Origin: Bacteroidales bacterium
GTDB lineage: Bacteria; Bacteroidota; Bacteroidia; Bacteroidales; F082
DNA length: 64,000 bases
Assembly (NCBI GenBank): GCA_030683155.1
Contig: JAUXMV010000079.1
Span: 62,001-126,000, forward strand
Reading direction: 5' to 3'
Shown: positions 5,321 to 32,347 of the stretch, one piece after another
How positions within the stretch are numbered: the stretch's first letter is position 1
Layout of the letters: the number at the start of each line of letters is the position of its first letter
Translations under genes and position numbers: made by a program
The notes under the pieces: model-generated
Database searches by the model: none
What the model saw: only the letters and a program-made list of their open reading frames with translations
Told to the model about the DNA's origin: nothing

Positions 5321-6691
5321 CTATAGCAACACATTAGCCAGATTTGCAAGTTCTGAACGTTCGCCTTTTTCGAGGCGCACATGTGCATAAATACCGTGAT
5401 GTTTTATTTTATCGATCAGGTATGAAAGGCCATTGGAATGGGCATCGAGGTAAGGTGTGTCAATCTGGAAGATGTCGCCGGTGAAAATAATTTTTGTGTT
5501 TTCACCTGCCCGTGTAATAATTGTTTTCACTTCATGGGGTGTAAGATTCTGCGCTTCATCAACGATAAAAATCACATTTGAAATACTACGTCCGCGAATG
5601 TATGCCAAAGGTGTAATCACAAGTTTTTCTTTTTCGACGGCCTCAGTGATGCGCTTATACTCCTTGTCCTCCTCACCATATTGGTTTTGAATAAATTTCA
5701 GATTGTCCCAAAGAGGCTCCATATACGGATTGAGCTTAGATTTAATATCGCCCGGAAGGTAGCCAATATCTTTGTTGCTCAGCGGTACAATTGGTCGTGC
5801 CAGATAAACCTGCTTGAAATTGCGGCGTTGTTCCCAGGCCGCTGCCAGCGCAAGGAGCGTTTTACCAGTTCCTGCAATTCCTTGAATTGTAACCAGTTTC
5901 ACTTCGGGGTTGAGCAGTGCATGCAAAGCAAAAACCTGTTCGGCATTCCGGGGCATGATACGCGAAATCGCTTGCTTTTCGATACGTTCAACACGCTCTG
6001 TAATAGGGTTGAAGAAGGCAAGTGTAGAGCTCTTTAAGCTTTTAAGGACAAAATAATGGTTTGGGATTGCTTTCGTCAATCCTATGTCTGAAAGAGAGCA
6101 AAACCCTTCGCGGTAAAGCTTGTCAATCACTTCCGGATTCACTTCATCAAGATATGTTTTTCCAGTATAAAGCTGCTCTACGTCTTTGATTTTGCCAGTT
6201 TCATAATCTTCTGCATGCAGGCTCAAAGATTTGGCTTTCAACCGCAGGTTTACGTCTTTGCTCACAAGAATAACTTTGTGGTCAGGATACTCTTCAGCCA
6301 ATCGCAGTGCTGCATTCAATATGCGGTGATCGGGCTTGTCTGCACCAAAAATCTCACAGGCATCAGGCGTGCTTTTTTCTTCCATCAGCACTTTAAAACG
6401 ACCTTTTGTTGGGCCATTGAGGCGACGCCAGTTTTTCATTGTCGTTTTTCCTGAAATTTTATCCATGAACCGAATAAACTCACGAGCCTCATAATTTTTG
6501 TTGTCGTTACCCTTTTTGAAATTGTCCAATTCCTCGAAAACAGTGATGGGTATCGCCACATCATTCTCTTCAAAAGTATTGATGGCATTGTGATTGTAGA
6601 TGATGACAGATGTGTCGAGCACGAAAATCTTCTTGGGCTTAGCTTTTTTTACCGGCATAATGGGTAGTTTTTTAAGTTCAGATTGGAGCAT
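5321..6691 (-). CDS. PhoH family protein with N-terminal PIN domain
   Basis: A 456-residue protein with two domains. Residues ~20-165 form a PIN ribonuclease-like domain with acidic residues Asp26, Glu54, Asp121 and Asp146 in LDTSV, FEELD, PDHRI and SKDVNLR. Residues ~245-450 form a PhoH ATPase with Walker A GIAGTGKT (271-278) and Walker B IFIVDEAQN. PIN-PhoH (PhoH2-type) proteins are linked to RNA unwinding and cleavage. The cellular role in Bacteroidetes is not settled. The first ATG gives MLQSEL; Met12 (ATG at 6656-6658) is an equally likely start, since the conserved domain begins just after it and neither has a Shine-Dalgarno site. It is a single gene, convergent with the antiporters. 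Confidence 0.92.
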   Translation of the reverse strand: MLQSELKKLPIMPVKKAKPKKIFVLDTSVIIYNHNAINTFEENDVAIPITVFEELDNFKKGNDNKNYEAREFIRFMDKISGKTTMKNWRRLNGPTKGRFKVLMEEKSTPDACEIFGADKPDHRILNAALRLAEEYPDHKVILVSKDVNLRLKAKSLSLHAEDYETGKIKDVEQLYTGKTYLDEVNPEVIDKLYREGFCSLSDIGLTKAIPNHYFVLKSLKSSTLAFFNPITERVERIEKQAISRIMPRNAEQVFALHALLNPEVKLVTIQGIAGTGKTLLALAAAWEQRRNFKQVYLARPIVPLSNKDIGYLPGDIKSKLNPYMEPLWDNLKFIQNQYGEEDKEYKRITEAVEKEKLVITPLAYIRGRSISNVIFIVDEAQNLTPHEVKTIITRAGENTKIIFTGDIFQIDTPYLDAHSNGLSYLIDKIKHHGIYAHVRLEKGERSELANLANVLL

Positions 6692-6921
6692 AAAATTAAC
6701 TGGTTGTTATTCAAACTTTAATCATATTCGAAACAACTTATCAACATGGAGTTGTTGAATCCTTTCAAAAAAACTCGCTTTTTAATTAAAGTTCCGCAAT
6801 CTCGGTTTAACAGCAATTTTTAGTCTGCCACGACGTTTTCATAAAGTGCTGGATATTTGTTTGTTTCAGTATTTTCTTATTCAAATACCTCAATTTAGAC
6901 TGTTTCTAAAATTTTAAGCTA

Positions 6922-6951
6922 TTGTCTTTCACAAAAACAACTATACTTTTG
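6922..6951 (+). promoter_or_regulatory. Bacteroidetes-type promoter of the aminotransferase operon
   Basis: TTG at 6922-6924, 19 bases, then TACTTTTG at 6944-6951 fits the -33/-7 pattern TTTG-N19-21-TAnnTTTG. The start codon at 6983 lies 31 bases after the -7 box. The rest of the gap 6692-6921 is AT-rich with nothing else supported. Confidence 0.6.
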
Positions 6952-6982
6952 TATTTGTCGATTTTTCATTTAACACGATATT

Positions 6983-8140
6983 ATGCCTTCATTTAAAGGA
7001 CAAATTTTTTCAAAACTACCGAATGCCGGCACCTCCATATTCGCTGTAATGTCGAAAATGGCTGCAGATTTTAATGCCGTCAATTTATCACAAGGCTTTC
7101 CTGATTTTGCTATTTCAGAAAAACTTATCGCCCGTGTGAATCATTACATGAAAAAAGGTTTTAACCAATATGCTCCCATGCCCGGTGTTTCTTCACTGCG
7201 CAATGCTATTGCAAAAAAAGTGGAAACGACTTACGGTGTGCGTTACAATCCCGAAACAGAAATCACAATCACGGCAGGCGCCACCCAAGGGCTCTACACA
7301 GCTATTTCAACTTTTGTAAAAGATAGCGATGAGGTGATTATTTTTGAGCCTGCCTATGACAGCTATGCTCCGGCGGTGAAGGCCAATGGTGGTTTGGTGA
7401 AGTACGCTGAACTTAAGGCCCCCTTTTTTAAGATCGACTGGAATTCGGTTAAAAGATTGGTTTCGAACCGAACCAGAATGATTATAATCAACAGCCCGCA
7501 CAACCCCACCGGCAGCCTTCTGACTGCTGAAGACATGCAGCAGTTGGATCTGTTGACGCGCAACACCGATATCATTGTACTCAGCGATGAAGTTTATGAA
7601 CATTTGATTTTTGACGGAATACCCCATCAAAGCGTTTGTCTTTATCCTGAACTGCTGAGCCGAAGTTTTGTGATCGGCTCCTTTGGTAAAACCTTTCATG
7701 CCACAGGCTGGAAGACTGGCTTTGTGCTTGCACCTGAAGAACTAACCAAAGAGTTCAGAAAACTTCATCAGTTTGTTGTTTTTGCAGCAAATACCCCTAT
7801 TCAGCATGCTATAGCTGATTTTATTGCCGATCCTCAAAACTATGATGGGCTACCTGCTTTTTATCAGGCTAAACGTGATTTTTTCGTTTCAGGCCTTGCC
7901 CAATCACGTTTCAAAATTATCCCTTGCTATGGCACCTATTTTCAGCTACTCGATTACTCAGCCATATCTGATGAATTAGAAATGGCTTTTGCTGAGCGAC
8001 TTGTGAAAGAAAACGGCATTGCTGTTATTCCGGTAGCGCCTTTTTACCACAACCAGCTCAATCAGCAGTTGATAAGGGTCTGTTTTGCTAAAACAGAAGA
8101 AACACTCGCCAAAGCCACCGAAATTTTATGCAAGATTTAA
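6983..8140 (+). CDS. ybdL: Methionine/glutamine-type aminotransferase (class I, PLP)
   Basis: A 385-residue fold-type I PLP enzyme. The Schiff-base lysine is Lys236 in SFGKTFHATGWK; other cofactor residues are Asn174 (SPHNPTG), Asp202 and Tyr205 (SDEVYEH). N-terminal motifs VNLSQGFPDF and GFNQYAPMPG match the YbdL/kynurenine-aminotransferase-like group that uses methionine and glutamine. The 3' end overlaps the next gene, an omega-amidase, by 13 bases. Glutamine (or methionine-cycle 2-oxoacids) and an omega-amidase make up the glutaminase II pathway: transaminate glutamine, then hydrolyse the 2-oxoglutaramate formed to 2-oxoglutarate and ammonia. This link to methionine salvage is an inference from pairing and family. 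Confidence 0.85.
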   Translation: MPSFKGQIFSKLPNAGTSIFAVMSKMAADFNAVNLSQGFPDFAISEKLIARVNHYMKKGFNQYAPMPGVSSLRNAIAKKVETTYGVRYNPETEITITAGATQGLYTAISTFVKDSDEVIIFEPAYDSYAPAVKANGGLVKYAELKAPFFKIDWNSVKRLVSNRTRMIIINSPHNPTGSLLTAEDMQQLDLLTRNTDIIVLSDEVYEHLIFDGIPHQSVCLYPELLSRSFVIGSFGKTFHATGWKTGFVLAPEELTKEFRKLHQFVVFAANTPIQHAIADFIADPQNYDGLPAFYQAKRDFFVSGLAQSRFKIIPCYGTYFQLLDYSAISDELEMAFAERLVKENGIAVIPVAPFYHNQLNQQLIRVCFAKTEETLAKATEILCKI

Positions 8141-18918: not shown

Positions 18919-20034
18919 TTACTTTGGGCTAATATTTTTCTGATTTTTAGCCACTCTTTTCAAAAAATGTTTTGAATCCCCCGGCTGGTTAAAACAAATT
19001 GTTTCGCCAATTGACGAGATAACCTGATTTAATGTAACGGTACTTAGCGAAGCATCTTTATCAAGATTAGGCTTGTTGTTGTAGAGCTGATAGTTTTTTC
19101 TGTTTGTTACAGGGGTAAGATTGGGCATTACAACATTGGCTCCGGCCAGAATTCCTTTTTGCCTCCCAAGCGGATCGAGGGTTTCAAGTGCTGTGGAAGC
19201 AGCAATGTTTATCAAAGGCATGTTAAGCCGCAACAACGCAATCATCAAAAGTCCTTTCATGAAGCGCTCTTCAGCTGGCCAAAGTTCATGTGCATAGGCA
19301 AAAAGCGGTGTTTCAGCATGCTCGATATACGGTCCCATCCCCACCATATCTATATCCAAAGAGCGGAAAAAGATCAAATCATCGGCAAGGTCTTCAAGCG
19401 TTTGTCCGGGGAGTCCAATCATCACGCCTGTACCAACCTGAAAGCCTGTTTTTTTTAAATTTTCCAGTGAATCAATCCGGTTTTCCCAGGCATGGTTTTT
19501 ATCATTTGGATGTATTTTATAATACAATTCCTTGTTGGTGGTTTCAATGCGCAAAAGATAGCGATCAGCACCAGCCTGCTTCCACCGGCGGTATACCTCT
19601 TCAGCTTGTTCACCACAACTGAGCGTGATGGTGAGCTCGCTGTTGGTTTGTTCATGAATTTTATTCAAAAGCCGTTCAATATGATCAGCAAAACCTTGTC
19701 CTGTCTGTTCTCCTGTTTGAATAACGAGTGAGCCAAAACCTTGTTTCCATGCAAAATCTGCGCAGCTTAAGACCTCTTCATCGCTAAGTGTATAACGTTC
19801 TACATTTTTATTGCCTGCCCTGATGCCGCAGTAATAGCAGTTTTTACTGCATATATTCGATAATTCAATGAGTCCTCTCAAATACACCTTTCGACCAACA
19901 GCTGACTCCTTCATTTGGAGTGCTTTATCGAGTATCAGTGCTGTTTCATCGTCAGATTTAACTGAAAGCAATTCAACAAGTTCATCCTTGCTATGGTGTT
20001 TTTTTTCTAAAAGCGCTGTAATCCGCAGGCTCAT
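18919..20034 (-). CDS. hydE: [FeFe]-hydrogenase H-cluster radical SAM maturase HydE
   Basis: A 371-residue radical SAM enzyme. The CxxxCxxC motif is Cys62, Cys66 and Cys69 in LSNICSKNCYYCGIR; it binds the [4Fe-4S] cluster that cleaves S-adenosylmethionine. Further family segments are GFGSLVIQTGEQT, YLLRIETTN and GVMIGLPGQT. In the pathway, HydE acts on the HydG-derived iron-cysteine-CO-CN complex towards the two-iron subcluster that HydF carries to HydA. The start overlaps the end of hydF by four bases (ATGA), so translation is coupled. It is the last gene of the hydrogenase cluster. Confidence 0.95.
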   Translation of the reverse strand: MSLRITALLEKKHHSKDELVELLSVKSDDETALILDKALQMKESAVGRKVYLRGLIELSNICSKNCYYCGIRAGNKNVERYTLSDEEVLSCADFAWKQGFGSLVIQTGEQTGQGFADHIERLLNKIHEQTNSELTITLSCGEQAEEVYRRWKQAGADRYLLRIETTNKELYYKIHPNDKNHAWENRIDSLENLKKTGFQVGTGVMIGLPGQTLEDLADDLIFFRSLDIDMVGMGPYIEHAETPLFAYAHELWPAEERFMKGLLMIALLRLNMPLINIAASTALETLDPLGRQKGILAGANVVMPNLTPVTNRKNYQLYNNKPNLDKDASLSTVTLNQVISSIGETICFNQPGDSKHFLKRVAKNQKNISPK

Positions 20035-21239
20035 GATTCGATGTTTAAAAACGGTTCCATAACTCGGTCGAAAATGCCATTCAGGTAGGCAATTGTCATT
20101 CCATAGTTGCTCACAGGAATATTGGCATCCACAGCAGGTTTAAGCCTGTTAAGAAGTTGTTTGCGTGTCACAACACAACCGCCGCATTGAACTACGAGCT
20201 TATATTGCTGTATATCAACTACTGTTGAAAGTCCGGCTACAATATCAAAACCGATGTTTTTCTGCGTGAACTCCCCTATCCATTTCGGAAGCTTGTGCCG
20301 TCCGATATCTTCGCAGCTTACCTGATGTGCGCAGGATTCAAGTATCAGAACCTTATCACCTTCCTGAAGTTTTGATAACATTGGTGTTCCTGCAATATAA
20401 TGATCAAAATCGCCCCTGAGCCGGGCAAAAACGATGCTAAAACTTGTAAGCGGGACGTCGGCCGGTACGATAGAATTTACAAAAGCAAAAGCCTGACTGT
20501 CGGTAACAACAAGCTGAGGGCGTGGCATGTTTTGTTCAAAATACTGCTTAAGGTGCGTTTCTTTTAAAACGACACAAATACAATCATTGTCGAGCACATC
20601 ACGAATGGCCATTACCTGCGGCAAAATCATGCGCCCGTCAGGTGCTTCTGAGTCAATCGGTGTGACGAGAAGTACGACACCATCGGGTTTCACAATACCT
20701 CCGAGAAGAGAAGGTTTTTGCCATGTAGTTTCAGGAATGGTGCGCTTCAATTCTTCGATCAGTTCGTTGAGCTGACCGCTGTGTGTAGTTGTAAAATCGA
20801 GCACCGTTGCTTTACTGAATTCACGGATTTTTTCGCGGGTGATAGGCTCAACAGGACTTACATCTGATTTATTGTGAACGATTACATAAGGTACGGCATA
20901 TTCGCGCAATTGCGTGATGAGTTCTTTTTCATAAAACCCAAACTCGTTGTTAGTAATAACAAGAATAGCGCAATCCATTGCCTTGAGTGCATCATAGGTT
21001 TTTTTCACCCTTTTTTCGCCCAGTTCACCTGTATCATCGATTCCGGCAGTATCAACAATAATGGCAGGACCGATTCCGAATATCTCGATGGATTTTTTTA
21101 CGGGATCGGTCGTAGTGCCGGGTTCTGGTGAAACTATCGCAACATCCTGATTCACCATAAGGTTTATGATTGAGCTTTTTCCGTTGTTACGTCTGCCAAA
21201 AATTCCAATATGTGGTTTTAAATCTCTTCCTTTTGCCAT
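20031..21239 (-). CDS. hydF: [FeFe]-hydrogenase H-cluster maturation GTPase HydF
   Basis: A 402-residue scaffold protein. The N-terminal GTPase domain has Walker A GRRNNGKSS (15-23), G3 VDTAGIDD and G4 HNKSD. A dimerisation domain follows. The C-terminal cluster domain has the cysteines CAH and CGGC that hold a [4Fe-4S] cluster. In many HydF proteins a His precedes CGGC; here it is Gln (VVQCGGC), a variant seen in part of the family. HydF assembles the two-iron subcluster with HydE and HydG and delivers it to HydA. Gap to hydG upstream is 85 bases. Confidence 0.96.
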   Translation of the reverse strand: MAKGRDLKPHIGIFGRRNNGKSSIINLMVNQDVAIVSPEPGTTTDPVKKSIEIFGIGPAIIVDTAGIDDTGELGEKRVKKTYDALKAMDCAILVITNNEFGFYEKELITQLREYAVPYVIVHNKSDVSPVEPITREKIREFSKATVLDFTTTHSGQLNELIEELKRTIPETTWQKPSLLGGIVKPDGVVLLVTPIDSEAPDGRMILPQVMAIRDVLDNDCICVVLKETHLKQYFEQNMPRPQLVVTDSQAFAFVNSIVPADVPLTSFSIVFARLRGDFDHYIAGTPMLSKLQEGDKVLILESCAHQVSCEDIGRHKLPKWIGEFTQKNIGFDIVAGLSTVVDIQQYKLVVQCGGCVVTRKQLLNRLKPAVDANIPVSNYGMTIAYLNGIFDRVMEPFLNIES

Positions 21240-21324
21240 GGTTTTTATTGTTTTTGTTTTTTCGCTGTTTCAGCAAGCTTAGATATTTCTGTTTTGTCCT
21301 TTAATATGCCGGGAAAGGTGAATA

Positions 21325-22752
21325 TTAGAAATACAAGTCTCTTTCTCCCTGTTTGATTCGACTGATGCGATCGCGTACCTGGATAACATAGCGGTCGTCT
21401 TCCATCTCGTTCAGACTCTTTTCGATAAGTGTCCAGCCTTTGGCAGCAGTGGTTTCAGTGGCGTAATCCTCGATATATTCAGCCAAGGTGAGCAATGCAT
21501 TGGGTGTACAGAATTTTTTAATAAATCCGGGCACACTGAATTCCATGAAATGCTGTCCAGTGCGGCCTTTTCTGTAGCAGGCTGTACAAAAAGATGGTAT
21601 ATAATCACTTTCAATGAGCTCATCAATCACCTCATTGAGGGTGCGGTCGTCATTGATTTTGAACTGCTCTTTTGTAAGGTTTTGATCTATTTCAGGATTT
21701 TCGGCATAGGCGCCAATTTCAAGTTTCGTTCCGGCATCAATTTGTGAACAGCCGAAAGCAAGCACTTCGCGGCGGATGTGATGTGGTTCACGCGCAGTAA
21801 GTATCAATCCGGTGTAGGGAACGGCAAGGCGCAAAATGGCAACCAAACGCGTGAATTCTTCATCGCTAACCTGATGCTTATTGTCAAGGTCGTATTCAAG
21901 TGCATCCTGAATTCTTGGAAATGAAATTGTGTGCGGACCAACATTGTAGCAAGCTTCAAGGTGATTCACATGCCTGAGCAGCGCAAGCACTTCAAACCGC
22001 CAGTCGTAAAGACCAAATAATGCACCAATGCCAACATCGTCAATTCCTGCTTCCATGGCCCTGTCAAGTGCGGTAAGCCTGTAGTTGTAGTCTGATTTTT
22101 TACCCGAAACATGGCAGACGGCATAGGTTTCGTGATGATAAGTCTCCTGAAAAACCTGATAAGTTCCGATACCGGATTCATGAATTATTTTGAAACCTTC
22201 TATGTCGAAAGGCGCTGCATTGATGTTAACTCTGCGGATTTCACCATGGTCTTTTTTTACTTTATACACTTCACGGACGGTGTCGGCAATAAATTCAGCG
22301 TTATAGGTACGGTGTTCGCCAAAAACCAGAATAAGACGTTTCTGGCCATGCTCTTCCAGTGCCTTTACGTTTTCAATAAGCTCTTCTTTGGTAAGGGTTT
22401 TGCGGATTGCATCCTTGTTGGAAGCCTTAAAACCACAGTAACGACAATTGTTTGAGCAATAATTTCCTACATAAAGCGGTGCAAAAAGCACTATTCTTTT
22501 TCCGTAGACTTTTTCTTTGAGTTCGCGGGCTCCCTGCTTGATGAGCTCAATCATTTCCGGCTCACAGGCCTGAAGCAAAACAGCAGTTTCAGCCATGTTG
22601 AGCCTGTTTTTGTTCAAAGATTTCTGTACGATTGCTTCAACAAGCTCAGCTGTTGGCTTTGCCTGATTGATAAAATCCCATATTTCGTCGTCGTCGATAA
22701 AGGGCTGCATTGAAACATCAGGCAGCTTATATTTTTCAGGAGTGAATTTCAT
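21325..22752 (-). CDS. hydG: [FeFe]-hydrogenase H-cluster radical SAM maturase HydG
   Basis: A 475-residue tyrosine lyase of the ThiH type. The radical SAM cluster is held by Cys99, Cys103 and Cys106 in NYCSNNCRYCGF. The C-terminal auxiliary cluster motif is CTACYRKGRTGQHFM (Cys389, Cys392), with a further Cys in KKFCTPN about 20 residues on. HydG splits tyrosine into p-cresol, CO and cyanide and builds the Fe(CO)2(CN) unit used for the H-cluster. It is on the same strand as the signalling genes upstream (137-base gap) and hydF downstream, so it may be part of one long transcript. Confidence 0.97.
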   Translation of the reverse strand: MKFTPEKYKLPDVSMQPFIDDDEIWDFINQAKPTAELVEAIVQKSLNKNRLNMAETAVLLQACEPEMIELIKQGARELKEKVYGKRIVLFAPLYVGNYCSNNCRYCGFKASNKDAIRKTLTKEELIENVKALEEHGQKRLILVFGEHRTYNAEFIADTVREVYKVKKDHGEIRRVNINAAPFDIEGFKIIHESGIGTYQVFQETYHHETYAVCHVSGKKSDYNYRLTALDRAMEAGIDDVGIGALFGLYDWRFEVLALLRHVNHLEACYNVGPHTISFPRIQDALEYDLDNKHQVSDEEFTRLVAILRLAVPYTGLILTAREPHHIRREVLAFGCSQIDAGTKLEIGAYAENPEIDQNLTKEQFKINDDRTLNEVIDELIESDYIPSFCTACYRKGRTGQHFMEFSVPGFIKKFCTPNALLTLAEYIEDYATETTAAKGWTLIEKSLNEMEDDRYVIQVRDRISRIKQGERDLYF

Positions 22753-22889: not shown

Positions 22890-24011
22890 TTATTGACGCG
22901 GCAAAGATACTGTGAAAGTTGTTCCTTCGTCAACAATGCTTTCAACACTGATGGTGCCATTGTATTGTTCCACCATTTTTTTTGCAATCGAAAGGCCAAG
23001 TCCGCTGCCTGTAATGGCTTTGGTCTTGCTGTTTTTGATACGCACAAAATCTTCAAATATTTTGGTAACATCTTCGCTGTTCATGCCAATTCCAGTATCT
23101 TTAACAACAACACAAAGGCTTTGTTTTTTATCTTCAATCAAAATATCAACTTTGCCATTGTCTTTGTTGTATTTCACAGCGTTTGAAACGAGATTGTTAA
23201 AAATTATCTCCATTTCATCGGCATCGGCTAAAACGTAGGTATTTCCAATGACTTTAAGTGTCATTTTCACATTTTTCTGAATAGAATAGGGTTCCATGGT
23301 ATCCATCGATGTTCGTGATATGGCAGCCAGGTCAATTTCACGCATTTTGCGTTCCTTTTTTCCTGATTCCATTTTGGTGAGATCGAGTAAATCCATGATG
23401 AGGTTGCGCATTCCTTTGAGCCTTGAAAGTGAACGGTCGATCATTTTCTCATAGTCCTCAATTTTGTCGCCCATTTGTTTCTCCTGCATCATTTTCAAAT
23501 AGCCTTCAATAGCATTGATCGGCGATTTGAGTTCGTGTGACAAGACGGACAGAAATTGAAAGCGGATTTGCTTCCCCTCTTTTTGCATTTTGAGGGTCAT
23601 TCGCTTCAGAAAAAGGTGTTTGGCTACATTTTCTATTGTTGCTCTGAGTTCTTGCGGCGTGAAAGGCTTAGGCATAAAATTATATGCGCCGTTTTTAGTT
23701 GCTTTTATGGCCAAATCAAGTGAAGCATAAGAAGTAATCATCATAACGGCCACATCAAACTGCTGTTTGTTGATATATTCTAGTACCTCAATCCCGTCCA
23801 TACCGGGAAGTTTGTTGTCGAGCAAAACTACATCAACATGCTGCTTATTGAGTATCTCGACCGCTTCTTCCCCGGTGCCTGCTTCGATGAGATTGAAGTC
23901 GAAGTCTTCGTCCATAAAGGGATAGCCAACAGTGTAGTTTCCCAGGATGCGTGTAATGCCTGAGCGAATGCCAGGTTCGTCATCCACAACAAGAACATGA
24001 AGTGTTGCCAT
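22890..24011 (-). CDS. Receiver-histidine kinase hybrid protein
   Basis: A 373-residue cytosolic signalling protein. Residues 5-125 form a receiver domain with acidic pocket Asp10/Asp11, phospho-acceptor Asp65 (VVLLDNKLPG) and Lys115. Residues ~150-215 form a HisKA dimerisation domain with His159 in LSVLSHELKSP. The C-terminal HATPase domain shows DTGIGM and GSGLGLSIAKKMVEQ. It has no membrane segment and no input domain other than the receiver, so it most likely relays phosphate from an upstream kinase, such as the H-cluster kinase of the same cluster, to another regulator. It lies between the small receiver gene and hydG. Confidence 0.9.
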   Translation of the reverse strand: MATLHVLVVDDEPGIRSGITRILGNYTVGYPFMDEDFDFNLIEAGTGEEAVEILNKQHVDVVLLDNKLPGMDGIEVLEYINKQQFDVAVMMITSYASLDLAIKATKNGAYNFMPKPFTPQELRATIENVAKHLFLKRMTLKMQKEGKQIRFQFLSVLSHELKSPINAIEGYLKMMQEKQMGDKIEDYEKMIDRSLSRLKGMRNLIMDLLDLTKMESGKKERKMREIDLAAISRTSMDTMEPYSIQKNVKMTLKVIGNTYVLADADEMEIIFNNLVSNAVKYNKDNGKVDILIEDKKQSLCVVVKDTGIGMNSEDVTKIFEDFVRIKNSKTKAITGSGLGLSIAKKMVEQYNGTISVESIVDEGTTFTVSLPRQ

Positions 24012-24132: not shown

Positions 24133-24528
24133 TTACAATTTCAACAATTTGTTGATCTCGCGATGTAACTGATCACTCCGGATACCTTTTTCAAGGTAAA
24201 GGTCAGCTTTTATCCAGTTCTTATTATTTTCGTTGTACAGGTCGAAATTGAACCCTGTTTCTGCAGTTGCAGCTGATGCCATGATGATAGGCATGTCGGG
24301 GTATTTGCGTTTTGCTTTGTAAGCCAGAATGAAACCACTGTCTTCCTGTTCCATCATCAGGTCAAAGATGGCCAGGTCAGGTTTTATGGTTTCAAGTACT
24401 TTCTCAGCTTCGGCCTGACCTTCAGCAGTTTTAACGCGGAAACCAAGATTTTTGACCATCAATTCCATTTGAAATAAATAGTCTGCATCATCATCGACAA
24501 TTAAAATCAATTTAAGCTCGTTGCTCAT
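24133..24528 (-). CDS. Single-domain response regulator (receiver only)
   Basis: A 131-residue receiver domain with no output domain. The acidic pocket is VDDDAD (Asp12-14), the phospho-acceptor is Asp56 in LAIFDLMME. The region between beta4 and beta5 is atypical (SAATAETGFNFDLYNENNKNWIKADLYLEKG), with an insertion before the conserved Lys. Stand-alone receivers usually act by protein contact or as phosphate relays. Its gene starts 32 bases after the H-cluster kinase, the best candidate for its phosphodonor. Confidence 0.88.
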   Translation of the reverse strand: MSNELKLILIVDDDADYLFQMELMVKNLGFRVKTAEGQAEAEKVLETIKPDLAIFDLMMEQEDSGFILAYKAKRKYPDMPIIMASAATAETGFNFDLYNENNKNWIKADLYLEKGIRSDQLHREINKLLKL

Positions 24529-24560: not shown

Positions 24561-26546
24561 TTATGCTGGGTTTCGTGGTAGAGTAATGATGAAAGTGGTG
24601 CCTGTAGGCCCATTTTCAGGTATGCTGTTGGAAACAATATTTATTTTTCCCTGATGCATTTTCACAATACCATAGCAAAGTGGTAAACCCAAACCTGTTC
24701 CTTTGCCCAATTCCTTTGTTGTAAAAAACGGAGTAAAAATTTTCTCCATATTTTCTTCTGAAATACCCGTTCCGTTATCTTTTATGTGAATTTCAACTTC
24801 ATCACGTTTTTCTTTCAGTTCGATAGTCAGCACTCCCCCACCGGGCATGGCCTCAACAGCATTTTTTTCAAGATTAGTCAATACCTGCATCATCTGATCG
24901 GAATCAATATATACAAATGGATCGTTCATCTCTATTTTCATTTCGACAGTAATGTTTTCGGGCAAAACAACCGATTGAATGCTTCGTGTGGCAAACTTTT
25001 CGAGATGCGTTTCGACATGACGAACCTGATTTTTTCTTGCAAAATTAAGCAGTCCACCAACAATTTTCCTGCATCTGTCGGCTTGTTCCACAATAAGCTC
25101 CAGATCACCACGAGCTGTAGTGTCCTTTGTTTCGTCGAGCAAAAGATTGCTATACATAGTAATTACACCAAGCGGATTGTTTAGTTCGTGGGCGATACCA
25201 GCCGAAAGCTGACCCATATGTGCAAGCTTTTCCGACTGCTTCAATGCTTCACGCGCACTTGCCAGTTCCAAATTAGACAGGTTGAGCTTTTCTACCGATT
25301 GATGCAGTTTTTCAATGGCAAATGGAAGACACATTTCGTTTTCTGCCAACCCTTGCACAATGGCAATAGCGTGCTCAATGCATGTGTCGTAGCCACACGC
25401 ACCGCAGTCCAGATAGTCTGATGCATCATTTTTACCCATACTGAAAAGCACTTCTGCAATTCTTTCAGAAGATGGTTTCTGCAGCCTTCTATCCATTGGA
25501 GAAAAGCTATTGCTCAGGTCAATTGCTTGCGCTTCGGCCATGTCATTTTGCCATTGCTCTGCATCGAGATTTTCCATCTTTTGTGCAACATACTTCGAAA
25601 TACAGGAACGGCGCTCGTATTTATTTCCGTTTTTTGACATCCCAGGTCCCATGATACACCCTTCGCAGCAAAGCAGTTCAAGGTGTCGGACCTGCAGTTT
25701 TCCCAAAGCAAATTCTGTGATAGCATCTTTGAAGTTTACCCTTCCTTCGGCCACAATTACATCGCCTTTGGTGAGATCGTGTTCCACATCCATATTTTGC
25801 AGCAAGCCATGACTGATAGGAAAAACTGAACCTCTTCCGGCATGCGGAGGGTCGAATTCACGTGGTTCAACCTTCTCCCGCCGAATTCCTTTTTGCTCAA
25901 AAAGTCCTCTCAGTTCACTGAATGTAATGGCATAATGAACATCGTCTGATTCTGCTTTTTTCGCAATACAAGGGCCAACAAAAACGATCTGAAGATCATC
26001 ACCATGTTTTTGCTTCAAAAAACGTGAAACAGCGACCATGGGCGAAACAACCGGCGCAAGATTGGAAACCAACTCGGGCTGGTAGTGCTCAATATAAAAA
26101 ACAATGGCCGGACAATCGGAAGTAATAATACCCTTATCTTCGTTTTTTTCATAAAGTTCACGATACGCCACTGCTGCCATGTCAGCCCCAAATCCAACCT
26201 CAGTTACAAGATCAAAACCGAGTGTTTTAACCATACTAACCAAAATTCTGTAATCCTCGATCTCTGTAAATTCGGCCGGAAAACTTGGTGCCAGACATGC
26301 CGCAGTGCGTTTGCCGCTTTGGAGTAACTCCAAAACTTCATCACTTTGTTTCAAATATACTTTAGCTTCCTGACGACATACCCTCACACAATTGCCACAT
26401 CCAATGCAACGTTCGCTGATAACCTCAGCCTGTCCGTTAACCATTTTGATTGCTTTCACCGGACATTCGCGCACACAGGTAAAGCATACCCTGCAAAGGT
26501 CTTTTACCGTAAAAACAAGCTGTTTATGTTTAGTATTATGTGCCAT
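24561..26546 (-). CDS. Hydrogenase-like H-cluster sensor histidine kinase
   Basis: A 661-residue soluble fusion. Residues 15-60 hold two [4Fe-4S] ferredoxin motifs (Cys18/21/24/28 and Cys47/50/53/57). Residues ~75-320 form an [FeFe]-hydrogenase H-cluster domain: TSDCP with Cys145, VGPCIAKK with Cys193, and LLCCEGC with Cys293 and Cys297. These four align with the H-cluster ligands of catalytic enzymes. Asp144 replaces the proton-relay cysteine, and Gly191 replaces the Met before PC. Residues 381-406 are a further CxxCx4C...C iron-sulfur motif. Residues ~440-660 form a histidine kinase: His453 in [11 protein letters not shown], then DNGTGI and [13 protein letters not shown]. It resembles sensory group C [FeFe]-hydrogenases. 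Sensing H2 or redox state and phosphorylating the neighbouring receivers is inferred. It lies between hydA and the receiver gene. Confidence 0.88.
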
Positions 26547-26598: not shown

Positions 26599-28320
26599 CT
26601 AATTCACTTCTCTTTTTTGATAGTGCGTATGGAGCAAATGATGACTCTTATGTCCCAGTGGCTTACCAAGGAATTTATCGTACAATTCAACGATATAAGG
26701 GTTTTTATGCGATGCTTTGATTGCATCTTTTTCATCAATATCGTAAAGTGTTGCCATACGCGCTTTCACAGCTTCTTCATCTGTTCCTATTGGCTGACCG
26801 CCACCATTGATACAACCTCCGGGGCAAGCCATCACCTCAATAAAATGAATGTCGTCGCGTCCGTTTCTCACTTCTTCAAGCAGTTCGGCAGCATTCTTTA
26901 ATCCGCTAACTACAGCAACACCAACATTCAGATCACCGATCTGAATATGTGCTTCTTTGCGTCCCTGTAATCCACGAAGGGCTTTAACCTGAAACTTAAC
27001 CATTTCCTTTCCAGTAATCAAATAATGTGCAGTGCGTATCGCCGCTTCCATCACACCGCCCGAGGATCCAAATATTTTGCCTGCAGAAGAGCGCGTTCCC
27101 AGCGGAGAATCAGCAAGTTCAGGTTCCATCTTGTGAATATCTATACCATACATGCGAATCAAACGTGCCAGCTCGCGGGTTGTGAGAACCGCGTCAACAT
27201 CCGAAATACCGTTTTGGGTCATCTCCTCACGTTGCTGCTCGAATTTTTTGGCCGTACAAGGCATCACCGAAACAGAATAAATATTTTCAGGCGCGATGCC
27301 TTCTGATTCAGCAAAGTAGCTTTTTATTATGGCACCCATCATCTGCTGTGGCGATTTGCATGAAGATAGGTTGGGGAGAATATCATGTCCAAACTCTTCG
27401 GCATATTTAACCCATCCCGGACAGCAGCTGGTAATCATTGGAAGAACACCACCGTTTGTGACGCGATGCACCAATTCTGAAGCCTCTTCCATGATCGTGA
27501 GGTCTGCCGAAAATGAAGTGTCGAACACAAAATTGAATCCAATTCTGCGCAAAGCAGCATTCATCAACCCGATAATATTTTGTCCGGGCTTAAAACCAAA
27601 CTCTTCTGCCAATGAAACCGAAATAGATGGTGCATACTGCACTACAACAACTTTATCCGGATTGCTCAGGTTATTTTTAATCTCATTGATATGTGGCTTT
27701 TCTTTTAAAGCACCTGTTGGACAGACCATGATACATTGTCCGCAATTTACACAGCTGGAGAGGTTTAGGCCATGATTAAAAGATGTGTCGATGAAAGTTT
27801 TGCTTCCACGGCCAACAAATTCAATGGCTGTAACACCTTCTATCTCTTCGCAAACCCTTACACAGCGGCCGCAAAGGATACACTTGGCCGGATCGCGGAC
27901 GATACTTGTACTTGATACGTCAAGTTTATAGTTATTCTTGTTTCCGCTTATCCGGCGCTCGCGTACATTGAGATCTTCCGAAAGTTTCTGAAGTTCGCAA
28001 CTACCGTTTCTTTCGCAGTACAGACAGTCGTCCGGGTGATTAGAAAGCAGCAGTTCTACAATTGTTTTCCTTGATTCGATAACACGCATGGAGTGTGTCA
28101 TGATTTTCATGCCATCCAAAACAGGCTCGGAGCAAGCCGTAACAAGATTGCGCCGGCCTTCAACTTCCACCACACACATGCGACAAGATCCTGTTGGAAA
28201 AAGCCCCTTCATATAACATAGTGTAGGAACTTTCATCCCGTTGCGACTCAGCACATCAAGAATAGTTTCGCCCTGACTGGCCTGTAATGTGTTATTATTA
28301 ACTTCTATCGTGAGGTTCAT
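26599..28320 (-). CDS. hydA: [FeFe]-hydrogenase catalytic subunit HydA (NADH-linked, trimeric type)
   Basis: A 573-residue enzyme with the order of a trimeric/HndD-type catalytic subunit. N-terminal [2Fe-2S] domain (Cys35, Cys46, Cys49, Cys63). HC3-type [4Fe-4S] site (His95, Cys99, Cys102, Cys108). Two [4Fe-4S] ferredoxin motifs (147-157 and 190-200). H-cluster domain with TSCCPGW (Cys299, Cys300), VMPCTAKKFE (Cys355) and EVMACPGGC (Cys499, Cys503), all canonical. A small-subunit domain closes the C-terminus. It reduces protons to H2, or oxidises H2, with electrons from NADH and ferredoxin via HydB/HydC. Gap to hydB is 34 bases. Cytosolic; no Tat signal. Confidence 0.97.
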   Translation of the reverse strand: MNLTIEVNNNTLQASQGETILDVLSRNGMKVPTLCYMKGLFPTGSCRMCVVEVEGRRNLVTACSEPVLDGMKIMTHSMRVIESRKTIVELLLSNHPDDCLYCERNGSCELQKLSEDLNVRERRISGNKNNYKLDVSSTSIVRDPAKCILCGRCVRVCEEIEGVTAIEFVGRGSKTFIDTSFNHGLNLSSCVNCGQCIMVCPTGALKEKPHINEIKNNLSNPDKVVVVQYAPSISVSLAEEFGFKPGQNIIGLMNAALRRIGFNFVFDTSFSADLTIMEEASELVHRVTNGGVLPMITSCCPGWVKYAEEFGHDILPNLSSCKSPQQMMGAIIKSYFAESEGIAPENIYSVSVMPCTAKKFEQQREEMTQNGISDVDAVLTTRELARLIRMYGIDIHKMEPELADSPLGTRSSAGKIFGSSGGVMEAAIRTAHYLITGKEMVKFQVKALRGLQGRKEAHIQIGDLNVGVAVVSGLKNAAELLEEVRNGRDDIHFIEVMACPGGCINGGGQPIGTDEEAVKARMATLYDIDEKDAIKASHKNPYIVELYDKFLGKPLGHKSHHLLHTHYQKREVN

Positions 28321-28354: not shown

Positions 28355-30295
28355 TTAGCTAACCTTTACAGCATCGAAATTACATGCTTCCAAACAGGCT
28401 CCGCAACTTATACATTTATCTGGTATGATAAAATGTGGCTGTTTTCTACCGCCGATAATTGCGTTGGTAGGACACTTTTTGGCGCAAATTGTGCATCCGG
28501 TGCATTTCTCAACATCAATGCTGTAATCACGTAAGTTTTGGCAAACACCGGCCCTGCATTTTTTGTCAAATACATGCTCTTCATATTCTTCCTTAAACCA
28601 TGTAAGGGTGCTGAGTACCGGATTAGGCGCTGTTTGTCCAAGTCCGCAAAGAGAAGTGTCTTTGATAACTTTAGCCAGACTTTCAATCTGCAAAACACCT
28701 TTGAAACGGGCTAATGGCTCATGGGTTTCGCGGTCTTTTGGTTTTGAGGTGATGCTTTCAAGAATTTCGAGCATACGACGTGTACCTTCGCGGCAAGGGA
28801 TACATTTTCCACAACTTTCACGTTGAATGAAATCCATGAAAAATTTAGCCACATCAACCATACAAGTATCTTCGTCCATCACAACCATACCTCCTGAACC
28901 CATCATCGCGCCAACATTGACCAGGTTTTCGTAGTCAACCTCAATGTCAAGATTCGCTTCGGTAACACAGCCTCCCGAGGGACCACCCATTTGAACGGCC
29001 TTAAATTTCTTTCCGTTGGCGATGCCTCCGGCAATTTTATAAATGATATCACGGATTGTTGTTCCCATTGGAATTTCAACAAGTCCGGTAGTGGCAATTT
29101 TTCCTGAAAGCGCAAAAACCTTGGTTCCCTTACTTGTAGCAGTTCCCATCGATCCAAACCAATCGGCACCTTTATTTACAATTGTAGTAAGGTTGGAAAG
29201 TGTCTCAACATTGTTGATGATTGTCGGCTTGCCAAACAATCCGCTCACTGCAGGAAAGGGCGGGCGTGGACGTGGCATACCACGTTTACCTTCGATGCTG
29301 TGGATAAGCGCGGTTTCTTCTCCGCAAACAAAGGCGCCTGCGCCTTTTTTAATGACGATATCAAGGTCGATGCCTGTTTCAAAAATATTTTTTCCAAGCA
29401 ATCCATATTCTTTTGATTGCGCAATTGCAATCACAAGCCTTTCGATTGCCAGCGGATATTCTGCACGGATGTATACATACGCTTTGGTAGCTCCAATGGC
29501 ATATGCGGCCAAAGCCATGCCTTCAAGCAATCTGTGAGGATCGCCTTCGATAACAGCGCGATCCATGAAAGCACCCGGGTCACCTTCATCGGCATTGCAA
29601 ATAAGGTATTTCTGATCGGCTTCGGTGCCTAGTGCAAACTTCCATTTTTTACCTGTTGGAAAGCCCCCGCCGCCACGACCGCGTAAACCACTTTTTTCGA
29701 TATAATCGCAAAGTTCGGCACGGCTGAAAATTTTCAATGCATTGAGATAAGCTTTGTAACCTCCTCTTGCAATGTATTCTTCGATGCTTTCAGGATTTAT
29801 TACACCACAGTTTTCGAGCACTATGCGCACCTGAGGCTTAAAGAAAGAATGCTCATCCAGATAAGATACACCTTCCCAGTCCGACTGTTTTTCCTGTTCT
29901 CTGAATTGTCCTAAAACAGGGTGCTCAGGCAGCTTTTTATCAAAAATACTGTTAAGTATTGTTTCTACTTTATCGCCAGTAACCGCTTCAAAAGATATGC
30001 GTTTTTTTCCGGGCAACTTAATATCCATGATCGGTTCTGAAGAACAAAGACCAATACAGCCGACAGGTATAATATCTGCTTTAATTTTGTGCTCTTCAAT
30101 ATATTCTTTTGCCTTTTTAATGGTTTCGGTTGCTCCTGCTCCCAGACCGCAAGTTCCGGCACCCACAAAAATTACTGCATAATCCTTTTCCTCATTACGC
30201 ACAACGCTTAATTGACTAAGTGTTTCTGCACTTAGTATTTCTTTTTCGCTTTTTTGTAAAACGTTTTTTACTAAAAATGATTTCTCTGCAATCAT
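28355..30295 (-). CDS. hydB: NADH-dependent [FeFe]-hydrogenase subunit HydB (NuoF-like)
   Basis: A 646-residue flavoprotein. Residues ~35-125 form a thioredoxin-like [2Fe-2S] domain with cysteines in GTCGLGAG and GCIGLCSSEP. The NuoF core has the FMN/NADH glycine-rich loop LRGRGGGGFPTGKKW, the NAD-binding CNADEGDPGAFMDR and the [4Fe-4S] motif SCGKCIPCREG. The C-terminus adds two [4Fe-4S] ferredoxin motifs (CTGCTICAKKCP and CISCGACLEAC). It exchanges electrons with NAD(H). Trimeric HydABC enzymes of this type can bifurcate or confurcate electrons between NADH and ferredoxin; that is family knowledge. Start overlaps hydC by four bases (ATGA) with a good Shine-Dalgarno-like AGGGAGGT at 30302-30309. 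Confidence 0.96.
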   Translation of the reverse strand: MIAEKSFLVKNVLQKSEKEILSAETLSQLSVVRNEEKDYAVIFVGAGTCGLGAGATETIKKAKEYIEEHKIKADIIPVGCIGLCSSEPIMDIKLPGKKRISFEAVTGDKVETILNSIFDKKLPEHPVLGQFREQEKQSDWEGVSYLDEHSFFKPQVRIVLENCGVINPESIEEYIARGGYKAYLNALKIFSRAELCDYIEKSGLRGRGGGGFPTGKKWKFALGTEADQKYLICNADEGDPGAFMDRAVIEGDPHRLLEGMALAAYAIGATKAYVYIRAEYPLAIERLVIAIAQSKEYGLLGKNIFETGIDLDIVIKKGAGAFVCGEETALIHSIEGKRGMPRPRPPFPAVSGLFGKPTIINNVETLSNLTTIVNKGADWFGSMGTATSKGTKVFALSGKIATTGLVEIPMGTTIRDIIYKIAGGIANGKKFKAVQMGGPSGGCVTEANLDIEVDYENLVNVGAMMGSGGMVVMDEDTCMVDVAKFFMDFIQRESCGKCIPCREGTRRMLEILESITSKPKDRETHEPLARFKGVLQIESLAKVIKDTSLCGLGQTAPNPVLSTLTWFKEEYEEHVFDKKCRAGVCQNLRDYSIDVEKCTGCTICAKKCPTNAIIGGRKQPHFIIPDKCISCGACLEACNFDAVKVS

Positions 30296-30762
30296 GGTTG
30301 TACCTCCCTGCTTTTGTAATCCTGGAAAATAGTTTTGATAGTTTCGCTTGAAACTTTGGCATGAAACTCACCGTTGATGCTTATTACAGGTGCAAGGCCA
30401 CAAGCGCCGATACATGCTACAACTTCAAGACTAAATAGTTTGTCGCGAGTAGTTTGGCCTGATTTTATCTTCAGATTCTTTTCAATTTCATCAAGAACCG
30501 TGGCCGAACCGAGAACATGACAAGCAGTGCCTCTGCACACCTGTACATGGTATTTTCCTGGCTGAGTGAACCGAAACTGATTGTAAAAAGTTGCCACACC
30601 AAATATTTTGCTTGCAGGCATTTTTAAATATTTGCTCACTTCAACCACTGATTCCTCGGATAAAAATCCCATTTTTTCCTGCACATGCTGCAAGATTGGA
30701 ATGAGGCTGTCATAGCCGGCATTGGGGTATTCTTTCAGAATTTCCTGAACTATACTTTTCAT
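30292..30762 (-). CDS. hydC: NADH-dependent [FeFe]-hydrogenase subunit HydC (NuoE-like)
   Basis: A 156-residue thioredoxin-like [2Fe-2S] protein of the NuoE/24-kDa family. Cluster ligands are in VCRGTACHVLGS (Cx4C) and VACIGACGLAP (Cx3C), the normal spacing. The N-terminal helical part has the family segment ILQHVQEKMGFL and FGVATFYNQFRF. It is the first of the three structural genes hydCBA and passes electrons to the NuoF-like subunit. Length is typical. The 127-base gap upstream separates it from a response regulator gene on the same strand. Confidence 0.95.
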   Translation of the reverse strand: MKSIVQEILKEYPNAGYDSLIPILQHVQEKMGFLSEESVVEVSKYLKMPASKIFGVATFYNQFRFTQPGKYHVQVCRGTACHVLGSATVLDEIEKNLKIKSGQTTRDKLFSLEVVACIGACGLAPVISINGEFHAKVSSETIKTIFQDYKSREVQP

Positions 30763-30889: not shown

Positions 30890-31408
30890 TCAGGCTTGCT
30901 GATGTTGGTTCTTTTTAGCAAGAACGCGCTCTATTTCAGGTAATAAGCGGCTTTTGTCAACTGGCTTGCGAATGAAGCCATCAACAGGAACCCATACTGA
31001 CCTGCCGTCTTCAGCACGATAATCGATGCCGGCATTTCCGGTAACGATATCACGAATCAGAATCACCTGAAGCTCCTTGTAATTCGGGTCGTTGCGAAAC
31101 TCACGGGCCATTGCCTGAACGCTTGGTTTGGTAGTCATCAAAACCTCTATGGATGTCTCCATAATTGTTGGGATGCTGCGTAGTTCAGGATTGTCAACAA
31201 ACTCGCGTGCCATTTCGAAACCTTCGTAATGCGTAGTCATCATTACGTCGAGGATAGCTAAATCAGGTTTTTCTTTAAGTGCAAGTTCTATTCCTTCCTC
31301 TTTGTTAAAGGCTGAAATTACTTCATATCCTTCGTTTCCGAGCATTTGTTCAAGAACGGTGATAACATCCATGTCATCATCAACAACGAGAATTTTTGCA
31401 TTTTTCAT
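30890..31408 (-). CDS. Response regulator with expanded receiver domain
   Basis: A 172-residue protein read from the ATG at 31406-31408; a longer frame upstream has no receiver similarity and includes the likely promoter. The receiver has Asp10-12, phospho-acceptor Asp54 (LAILDVMM) and Lys148 (GFIRKPV). Between beta4 and beta5 an extra ~45 residues are present. This insert repeats the preceding helix: EMAREFVDNPELRSIP (65-80) resembles AMAREFRNDPNYKELQV (99-115). There is no DNA-binding domain. It precedes hydC and is a candidate partner of the H-cluster kinase or the hybrid kinase. Confidence 0.85.
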   Translation of the reverse strand: MKNAKILVVDDDMDVITVLEQMLGNEGYEVISAFNKEEGIELALKEKPDLAILDVMMTTHYEGFEMAREFVDNPELRSIPTIMETSIEVLMTTKPSVQAMAREFRNDPNYKELQVILIRDIVTGNAGIDYRAEDGRSVWVPVDGFIRKPVDKSRLLPEIERVLAKKNQHQQA

Positions 31409-31463
31409 GATATTCGATTTTAGTGGTTTATGATCAATTGTGATATTAATAACAATCAGGATA

Positions 31464-31471
31464 CAAAAATA
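31464..31471 (-). promoter_or_regulatory. Candidate -7 element of the hydrogenase cluster
   Basis: On the minus strand TATTTTTG fits TAnnTTTG, 55 bases upstream of the response regulator start at 31408. No clear -33 box. It could drive the response regulator and hydCBA. The rest of 31472-31699 holds an AT-rich 9-bp hairpin (31686-31708) over the stop codon of the LuxR-type regulator. Confidence 0.4.
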
Positions 31472-31699
31472 AACATAATATATAAGGTGCATCACGTATA
31501 TTGTTACTGATTTCACAATAGAGTTTTTACGCATTAAGGAAATAAAACCAGTAATTTTACGCAAAAGAGACTGCGCTAAAGAGAAGGGTTAAAATAATTT
31601 CATTGTGGTCGGGTTTGTCTTTTTACCGGTTAAAAGATTTGTAATTTCAGACTTATAACCCTTGGTTTAAGAAGTGCATCATAGAAATATATAGGTCAT

Positions 31700-32347
31700 C
31701 TATATATTAATCAACCCATTACGAATAGCATACGCAAGCATTGACACAGTGTTTTTGGTGTTTGTTTTTGCCATTAGGTTGCTTTTATGCCCAACAATTG
31801 TGCGTTCGCTTACAAACAAACGATCCGCGATCTCTTTATTATTCAAACCTTCTGCAAGCAAAGCAAGCACTTCCATCTCACGGCGGGTGAGACTAAGATC
31901 GCTTTCATTTTTTTCCTCTTTGGTAACTGACTTAGTAAAATAATCCCAAAGTTCTTCACTATAATAAGTCTTGCCGTTGTAAACAGCCTGTAAAGCCCTG
32001 TCTAACACTTCCTTCCGGATGTTTTTTATAAGAAACCCTTTCACTCCAGCTTCAATCATGCTTTGGATGTAGGCATCTTCTTTGAACATGGTAAGTGCTA
32101 TGATTTTGATTCCGGGATATTTTTCGATAGCTTTGCGGGTGGCTTCAACACCATTCATTACAGGCATTTCAATATCCATCAGCACCAGATCGGTTTCTTC
32201 CTGCTCAAGCAGCCTAAGAAATTCTGCTCCATCGGCAGCTTCAGCCACTACTTTGGCATAACCCAGTTTATTGATCACCATTTTAAGTCCACTTCGGAAT
32301 ATTTCGTGGTCATCAACAATAATGACACGAATTATAGGCTCAGTCAT
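31700..32347 (-). CDS. NarL/LuxR-family response regulator
   Basis: A 215-residue two-domain regulator. The receiver (1-125) has acidic pocket DDHE, phospho-acceptor Asp in LVLMDIEMPVMNG, and the conserved Thr and Lys positions (ALTMFKE, GFLIKNI). The C-terminal LuxR helix-turn-helix (~148-210) reads LTRREMEVLALLAEGLNNKEIADRLF and SERTIVGHKSNL. It is the only DNA-binding regulator in the cluster, so it is the best candidate for the output of the hydrogenase phosphorelay. This is inferred from position. It has its own -7 element 22 bases upstream. Confidence 0.92.
   Translation of the reverse strand: MTEPIIRVIIVDDHEIFRSGLKMVINKLGYAKVVAEAADGAEFLRLLEQEETDLVLMDIEMPVMNGVEATRKAIEKYPGIKIIALTMFKEDAYIQSMIEAGVKGFLIKNIRKEVLDRALQAVYNGKTYYSEELWDYFTKSVTKEEKNESDLSLTRREMEVLALLAEGLNNKEIADRLFVSERTIVGHKSNLMAKTNTKNTVSMLAYAIRNGLINI

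Follow-up and report, generated by a model that had tools for sequence, protein, structure and literature searches.

What does a histidine kinase sense when its sensor domain resembles an [FeFe]-hydrogenase, and what does it mean that this domain carries an aspartate where the catalytic hydrogenase encoded next door carries its proton-relay cysteine? The question is raised by one gene in the window (the whole 64,000-nucleotide stretch of a Bacteroidales contig that was analysed). The predicted protein has the following parts, all encoded on the minus strand:

24561..26546, minus strand: HydS-type sensor histidine kinase (kinase-bearing BfuT), 661 amino acids, ATG start
26376..26507, minus strand: N-terminal two-[4Fe-4S] ferredoxin domain, residues 14-57 (Pfam Fer4_10, 9e-09)
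25644..26309, minus strand: H-cluster domain, residues 80-301 (Pfam Fe_hyd_lg_C, 5e-43), ligands by alignment Cys145, Cys193, Cys294 and Cys297
26115..26117, minus strand: codon of Asp144 at the proton-relay position (CpI Cys299), read from the sequence, motif TSDCP
25668..25670, minus strand: codon of Cys293, an additional Cys characteristic of the Asp clade
25665..25667, minus strand: codon of Cys294, most likely the third-motif ligand, forming CxxC with Cys297; Cys in 111/112 relatives
25323..25412, minus strand: C-terminal Fe-S domain Cx2Cx4Cx16C, residues 379-408 (Pfam FeS, 3e-07)
25029..25217, minus strand: HisKA with phospho-acceptor His453, residues 444-506 (Pfam, 5.2e-14)
24570..24905, minus strand: HATPase_c catalytic domain, residues 548-659 (Pfam, 8.3e-26)

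By Pfam, the domains run from the N to the C terminus as ferredoxin, iron-hydrogenase large-subunit domain, FeS, HisKA, and HATPase_c. We compared the protein with 156 distinct group-C-like ORFs from 144 loci, 112 of which carry a kinase (phmmer, >100 bits). The survey draws on the best 80 of 570 confirmed matches and, for the other loci, on best matches only; the retention of 80 out of 570 means that the sample leans to near relatives. Counts over the 112 kinase-linked sensors include near-identical copies (for example L006, at 96%), and ORFs at or below 150 bits and exact duplicates were dropped. In the AlphaFold alignment, 107 of the 112 satisfied the filters on length and letters, of which 92 were retained, making 93 rows with the window protein; Pfam counts were made on 70 of these 93. 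Outside all counts stands a broken copy of the sensor (L029:1501-3288) from a same-family relative, G015; this copy has 15 stops inside the match and adjoins a HydA with intact motifs.

A first-pass annotation, made from the sequence alone, had described two ferredoxin motifs, a third Fe-S motif at residues 381-406, and an intact HisKA/HATPase kinase with His453, all of which were borne out. The eight ferredoxin Cys are retained in 111 of the 112 kinase-linked relatives (the remaining one gives no residues there). The C-terminal Fe-S ligands Cys381, Cys384, Cys389, and Cys406 are invariant in the 93 aligned sensors, as are His453 and the HATPase_c residues N562, D590, G592, G594, G616, G618, and G620. 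Structure prediction, which the annotation had proposed as a check, gave a hydrogenase fold: the AlphaFold model has a mean pLDDT of 88.1 and a pTM of 0.67, and the top 18 structural matches to its first ~350 residues are solved [FeFe]-hydrogenases (Z 40.5-36.8, rmsd 2.2-2.9, 338-364 aligned residues, all from re-alignment of Foldseek matches). Chains of CbA5H (Z 40.5, rmsd 2.2, 338 residues) and CpI are among the best rows, their Z scores spanning 40.5-36.8 with 338-348 residues aligned. None of the 70 scanned kinase-linked sensors, the window protein included, has a PAS match (Pfam, E 0.001), and the Fe-S domain would thus run into HisKA via a helix. Such a helix is predicted at residues 407-472, with pLDDT below 50 at 434-447, which makes its continuity unsure.

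The genes around the sensor, also on the minus strand, encode hydrogenase subunits, maturases and receiver proteins:

31700..32347, minus strand: NarL/LuxR-type response regulator, candidate transcriptional output (RespRegMctR, 1.7e-44, below the curated cut-off)
30890..31564, minus strand: RR2, receiver protein upstream of HydC (Response_reg, 3.4e-14)
30292..30762, minus strand: HydC, NuoE-like (2Fe-2S_thioredx, 6.7e-49)
28355..30295, minus strand: HydB, NuoF-like flavoprotein (Complex1_51K, 9.6e-47)
26599..28320, minus strand: HydA, catalytic subunit of an NADH-dependent/bifurcating-type [FeFe] hydrogenase (NF040763, 831 bits, cut-off 765)
24133..24528, minus strand: RR1, receiver-only response regulator with Asp56 (Pfam Response_reg, 8.8e-14), a conserved cassette member
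22890..24011, minus strand: RRHK, hybrid of receiver and HisKA/HATPase with Asp65 and His159 (Pfam)
21325-22752, minus strand: HydG maturase
20031-21239, minus strand: HydF maturase
18919-20034, minus strand: HydE maturase

The maturase block (18919..22752) scores above the cut-offs of TIGR03955, TIGR03918, and TIGR03956 (for HydG, HydF, and HydE). The same-strand order in the window is HydC, HydB, HydA, sensor, RR1, RRHK, HydG, HydF, HydE, with the sensor gene directly downstream of hydA/bfuA in the CBA cluster. HydA passes the NCBIfam model for group A6 NADH-dependent [FeFe] hydrogenases and has the motif TSCCP where the sensor has TSDCP, so that Asp144 replaces Cys299 as the annotation had read. 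The cassette HydC-HydB-HydA-sensor-receiver-receiver/kinase occurs in several phyla. Among best-match sensor loci with at least 5 kb upstream and at least 2.5 kb downstream, and with RR1 accepted on either side of the sensor, 25 of the 26 Asp-type loci have the full set of six genes (HydC, HydB, HydA, sensor, RR1, RRHK), as do 16 of the 24 others. The Asp-type exception, L043, does have a HydA, but one overlapping the called sensor start. Among the 24 non-Asp loci, HydA is found in 21, RR1 in 19, and RRHK in 22, and eight are without at least one cassette gene by the criteria used. Asp56 of RR1 (57 rows) and Asp65 and His159 of RRHK (70 rows) are conserved at 93% or more, the window's rows included.

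Pfam finds no DNA-binding domain in RR1, RR2, or RRHK, and a crude motif search, which is weak evidence, found no sigma-54 activator as a partner in the fetched loci. RR2-like ORFs lie upstream of HydC in several Bacteroidota loci. What makes the NarL-type gene our candidate output is that no fewer than six related loci (L035, L038, L042, L045, L055, L058) have a comparable ORF upstream. In some Bacteroidota, the HydA beside the sensor is itself without the relay Cys (SSDCP, GDCP, ATHCP, or ISACP; L103:6243-7967, L111:6238-7962, L050:6251-7975, L023:1-1482, and L046:4661-6382), so the partner hydrogenase may be altered in those five loci.

By these features, the protein is classed as a predicted H-cluster-type sensor kinase of the group C kind, as the annotation had proposed, and its architecture is already published: the kinase-bearing BfuT of sub-type V BfuABC, a group C H-domain joined to a histidine kinase and encoded downstream of bfuA (PMC11406978). 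Like other group C (HydS) proteins, it has four H-cluster Cys, no relay Cys, the small residue Gly191 for CpI Met353, and the C-terminal Cx2Cx4Cx16C domain (a criterion from PMC8163306); like kinase-bearing BfuT, it has fused HisKA and HATPase_c domains and a gene adjoining hydA/bfuA. HydABC and HydEFG are encoded alongside it in the window. The replacement of Met by Gly191, also noted in the annotation, extends to all 112 kinase-linked sensors. The HydDB table calls C1 "histidine kinase-linked" (PMC5037454), whereas kinase-bearing BfuT is filed under C3 in PMC11406978; the two sources use these labels differently, and we use group C only. Kinase-bearing BfuT is known from Hydrogenedentota, Calditrichota, and Bacteroidota (PMC11406978). 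Perlabentimonas gracilis is among the Bacteroidota named there, and its locus (L109) belongs to the Asp clade described below. The passages on BfuT in that paper mention neither the relay residue of the sensor, nor the CxxC third motif, nor the two receiver genes, and "response regulator" does not occur in its main text; in the open-licence literature we found BfuT in no other paper. What is useful beside the known architecture is the detail on the Asp and the CxxC motif.

Two characterised sensory proteins offer further comparison. TmHydS of Thermotoga maritima (group C; PMC10055695) likewise is without the relay Cys (Ala131), has Gly at the Met353 position (as do ~51% of sensory enzymes in that paper) and a C-terminal Fe-S domain, and shares an operon with a hydrogenase. 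It differs in having a PAS domain where the window sensor has the fused kinase, Ala rather than Asp, and Ser at the Met497 position; the window sensor is without the PAS domain that marks M2f, the TmHydS-type group C. TamHydS (group D/M2e; PMC8163306, PMC10407848) also is without the relay Cys, has Leu at the Met497 position and a Cx2Cx4Cx16C domain, and is encoded upstream of a bifurcating hydrogenase, but it has no fused kinase, a proposed relay in Glu252, and Ser instead of Gly at Met353. Sensing by groups C and D is still described as putative; for TsHfsB and RaHydS, a regulatory role has some backing from genetics (PMC8924675).

Membership in catalytic group A was rejected, given the motif TSDCP, a TIGR02512 score of 94.9 bits against a cut-off of 405.95, and a position outside the HydA rows. 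The last point bears on the phylogenetic check that the annotation had proposed: on a tree with nine HydA rows as the outgroup, the sensors fall outside them (SH-aLRT 99). The tree was built by a quick method without bootstrap, and 58 of its 140 inner branches are weakly supported. Rows at least 85% identical to a kept row were removed (162 to 143), and L004 (identical to the window), L069, and rows shorter than 180 residues (the second ORFs of L047 and L099, and the HydA of L134) were dropped. Two rows, L136 and L034, are long, and L136 meets the HydA rows. That the protein is a slow catalytic hydrogenase merely carrying a kinase seems to us extremely improbable. Engineered enzymes with Asp at this position are active (PMC6226526, PMC9563086), and TamHydS and TmHydS do turn over H2 slowly (PMC10055695 for TmHydS); the tree position and the score far below the group A cut-off speak against such a role, however, as does the full catalytic HydA encoded by the next gene.

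Does the domain hold an H-cluster? The annotation had named Cys145, Cys193, Cys293, and Cys297 as ligands. Three of these stand, and Cys293 was rejected, since position 293 varies among the 112 kinase-linked sensors (C in 70, with the ligand of L088 counted here, F in 27, A in 9, S in 5, T in 1) while Cys occupies position 294 in 111 of them, all but L088, which has CxxxC. The acid four residues ahead of the ligand in the HydA motif EVMAC is found four residues ahead of position 294 in 106/112 and ahead of position 293 in 1/112. Given this conservation of Cys294 and of the acid, the ligands are most likely Cys145, Cys193, Cys294, and Cys297. In the same register, Leu292 occupies the CpI Met497 position in 111/112. 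Kinase-linked sensors, as aligned, use CxxC, a third motif one residue shorter than the CxxxC of HydA, which is retained in all 12 PAS-type relatives; we found no account of such a CxxC motif in the open-licence literature searched. Within the Asp clade, 96% of members have Cys293; among the remaining kinase-linked sensors, the share is 32%.

Counting the CxxxC of L088, all four ligand positions are retained in 112/112 kinase-linked sensors. This weighs against a purely structural H-domain that binds no H-cluster in vivo, a reading prompted by a sister paralogue in many Bacteroidota loci. Its fourth ligand Cys is lost in 7 of 24 kinase-less ORFs (D, N, H, or T instead; L050 is also without two others), so these seven may be H-cluster-free and decay does happen nearby. 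With ligand loss in none of the kinase-linked sensors, we hold this reading very unlikely for the window protein. The paralogue count leaves out L069, a truncated kinase-linked sensor (25 with it). The kinase-less paralogue usually adjoins a SpoIIE-like phosphatase gene (L041:1799-3748, L039:1792-3669, L077:1744-3621, L027:1453-3348, L054:1300-3171, L060:1339-3192, L050:1260-3119).

A bound H-cluster need not make H2 the signal. The kinase could instead use its Fe-S chain to sense cell redox (ferredoxin/NADH) or CO/O2, and any turnover of H2 would then be incidental. By phmmer, many cassettes contain a Rex-type gene (NADH/NAD+ repressor), two ORFs having been checked with Pfam: it directly follows RRHK in 22 Bacteroidota loci (L041:11629-12270, which is CoA_binding plus Put_DNA-bind_N by Pfam, and 21 others matching this ORF) and in other phyla is found ahead of HydC, on its upstream side, for example in L064, L065, L083, and L092. 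The near-universal retention of the eight ferredoxin Cys would also fit redox sensing. On the other hand, the conserved H-cluster ligands would be superfluous in a plain Fe-S redox sensor, HydEFG are encoded in the same cluster, and no Rex-like ORF was found in the window, its own cassette included. We regard this reading as rather doubtful, and the readings weighed here do overlap with the one we prefer, an H2- or redox-responsive kinase.

At position 144, the 112 kinase-linked sensors have D in 52, T in 20, S in 16, A in 13, P in 9, and N in 2, and none has C. On a tree with the relay column masked, the D sensors form one clade (SH-aLRT 99, two changes minimum) of 42 rows after reduction, 41 with D and one with N (L026); with near-copies included, 52 of 53 members have D. 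Members with D reach down to 53% identity with the window protein. Another 30 loci of the window's order, all best-scoring matches and at least four of them from genomes already sampled (G000, G049, G056, G060), have D without exception; in this order, 128 of 295 sampled genomes match at E 1e-120, including genomes with only the kinase-less paralogue. Non-Asp Bacteroidota sensors exist: Ser is found in L060 and L062, both from records titled Bacteroidales, Asn in L026, and A, S, or P in L100, L105, L108, L110, and those loci of L116-L132 that are kinase-linked. The remaining non-D sensors belong to records whose titles name Planctomycetes, Myxococcota, Deltaproteobacteria, Hydrogenedentota, Lentisphaerae, Ignavibacteria, Elusimicrobia, WOR-3, and others. 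In the sampled sequences, Asp144 is thus a trait of one Bacteroidota clade and not a peculiarity of the window gene. We found no account of a natural Asp clade in the open-licence literature searched; Asp may already figure in the supplementary residue survey of PMC10055695, as about one-fifth of its sensory sequences have residues that the text leaves unnamed.

The Asp could also be neutral, frozen by ancestry at a position that is unconstrained in sensory enzymes. The six residues found there in kinase-linked sensors favour this reading, as does the lower activity of TmHydS A131C compared with wild type (PMC10055695), from which the position may not be a relay in group C at all. The same paper reports Cys in 17%, Ala in ~43%, Pro in ~10%, and Ser in ~10% of sensory enzymes. 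Against neutrality stands the persistence of D through the clade, and in the further, partly overlapping best matches, despite the low identities reached. Moreover, of 422 positions, eight (15, 144, 200, 291, 293, 307, 323, 415) distinguish the 53 clade members from the other 59 sensors, Asp144 most sharply. Four of the eight lie within seven residues of a ligand (P ~0.007; 3/8 with windows of 5 and 6, P 0.024 and 0.036), and this clustering is a hint only, since the rows are related and we chose the cut-offs by hand. All told, a neutral Asp remains a credible reading, though one we lean against. One of the eight positions, His415 (25302-25304), lies just past the C-terminal Fe-S domain, close to where the signalling helix begins, and is found in 98% of the Asp clade vs 7% elsewhere.

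If Asp144 is not neutral, engineered group A enzymes (C299D, C298D, C169D; PMC6226526, PMC9563086) suggest what it might do. They carry Asp at the same motif position beside the H-cluster ligand; they are laboratory catalytic variants with the remaining proton path intact, while the Asp of the window is natural and sits in a sensor. By analogy, the Asp144 sensor is best read as a natural counterpart of C299D. In CpI C299D, the Asp hydrogen-bonds the adt amine, and C299D and the algal C169D retain 30-80% of H2 release (PMC6226526); relay-Cys substitutions are said to cripple prototypical enzymes, with Asp alone exempted (PMC10055695). The annotation's suggestion that an Asp could still carry protons draws a lead from this retained H2 release. 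It fares less well with H2 oxidation, which in tabulated C-to-D enzymes falls to 0.02-4% of wild type with a bias toward H2 evolution (PMC9563086), an awkward property for an H2 detector that counts against the explanation we favour. In addition, counting across by hand without gaps, we find Ala124, Ala127, and Leu131 where the proton path of CpI has Glu279, Glu282, and Arg286, which would leave an Asp relay without its usual continuation. CaI C298D retains Hox under reducing conditions (PMC9563086). Since the engineered enzymes lose most H2 oxidation, lean to H2 evolution and in one case keep Hox under H2, the Asp clade may respond only at higher H2.

With the domains, the ligand and kinase residues, the cassette, and the clade-wide Asp read from sequence, we think it likely that the core of the explanation is a cytosolic, H-cluster-bearing kinase that responds to H2 or redox state. 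It would report H2 or a linked redox state to the phosphorelay encoded with the hydrogenase, which it probably regulates. HydEFG from the same cluster would insert the H-cluster, held by the four Cys named above. For the next step we offer a tentative proposal: H2 would slowly reduce the H-cluster, and Asp144, placed beside the adt amine as in C299D, would shift protonation and potential such that the oxidised resting state is favoured and a response follows only at fairly high H2. The change would then be passed to the kinase by conformation. The signalling route of sensory [FeFe]-hydrogenases is unsettled, and the C-terminal cluster of TamHydS is not reduced by H2 (PMC13104023); a redox change of that cluster is thus unlikely as the signal and a conformational route is favoured. 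His453 would phosphorylate RR1 and/or RRHK, and a DNA-binding regulator, for which the NarL-type gene is our guess, would act on the hydrogenase genes.

As sensor, kinase, two receivers, hydrogenase, and maturases adjoin, H2-dependent phosphorylation is directly testable, and with the natural D, T, S, A, and P versions, nature already supplies the variants needed to ask if the H2 threshold is set at the relay position. Speculatively, a Bacteroidota clade would have fixed the C-to-D change and the extra Cys293, together with the CxxC motif common to kinase-linked sensors, and so gained a kinase switch with a shifted H2 set-point; changes at the hypervariable relay position (D/T/S/A/P) would then be the means by which evolution tunes H2 thresholds across kinase-linked sensors.

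Two kinase-linked sensors also occur on one contig titled Hydrogenedentota (L091:1967-4168 and 6190-8127), with Ala and Asn at the relay position. The window's genome itself has a second hydrogenase operon on another contig (L145:1338-9669), with a Rex-like repressor, HydC, HydB, HydA, a PAS-type H-cluster sensor (Ala at the relay position), and a SpoIIE/PP2C phosphatase; SpoIIE is not mentioned in 12 open-licence papers searched for the term. As judged from its predicted genes, one bacterium thus has two sensors, one kinase-linked and the other of PAS type with a phosphatase gene beside it, and each adjoins its own hydrogenase.
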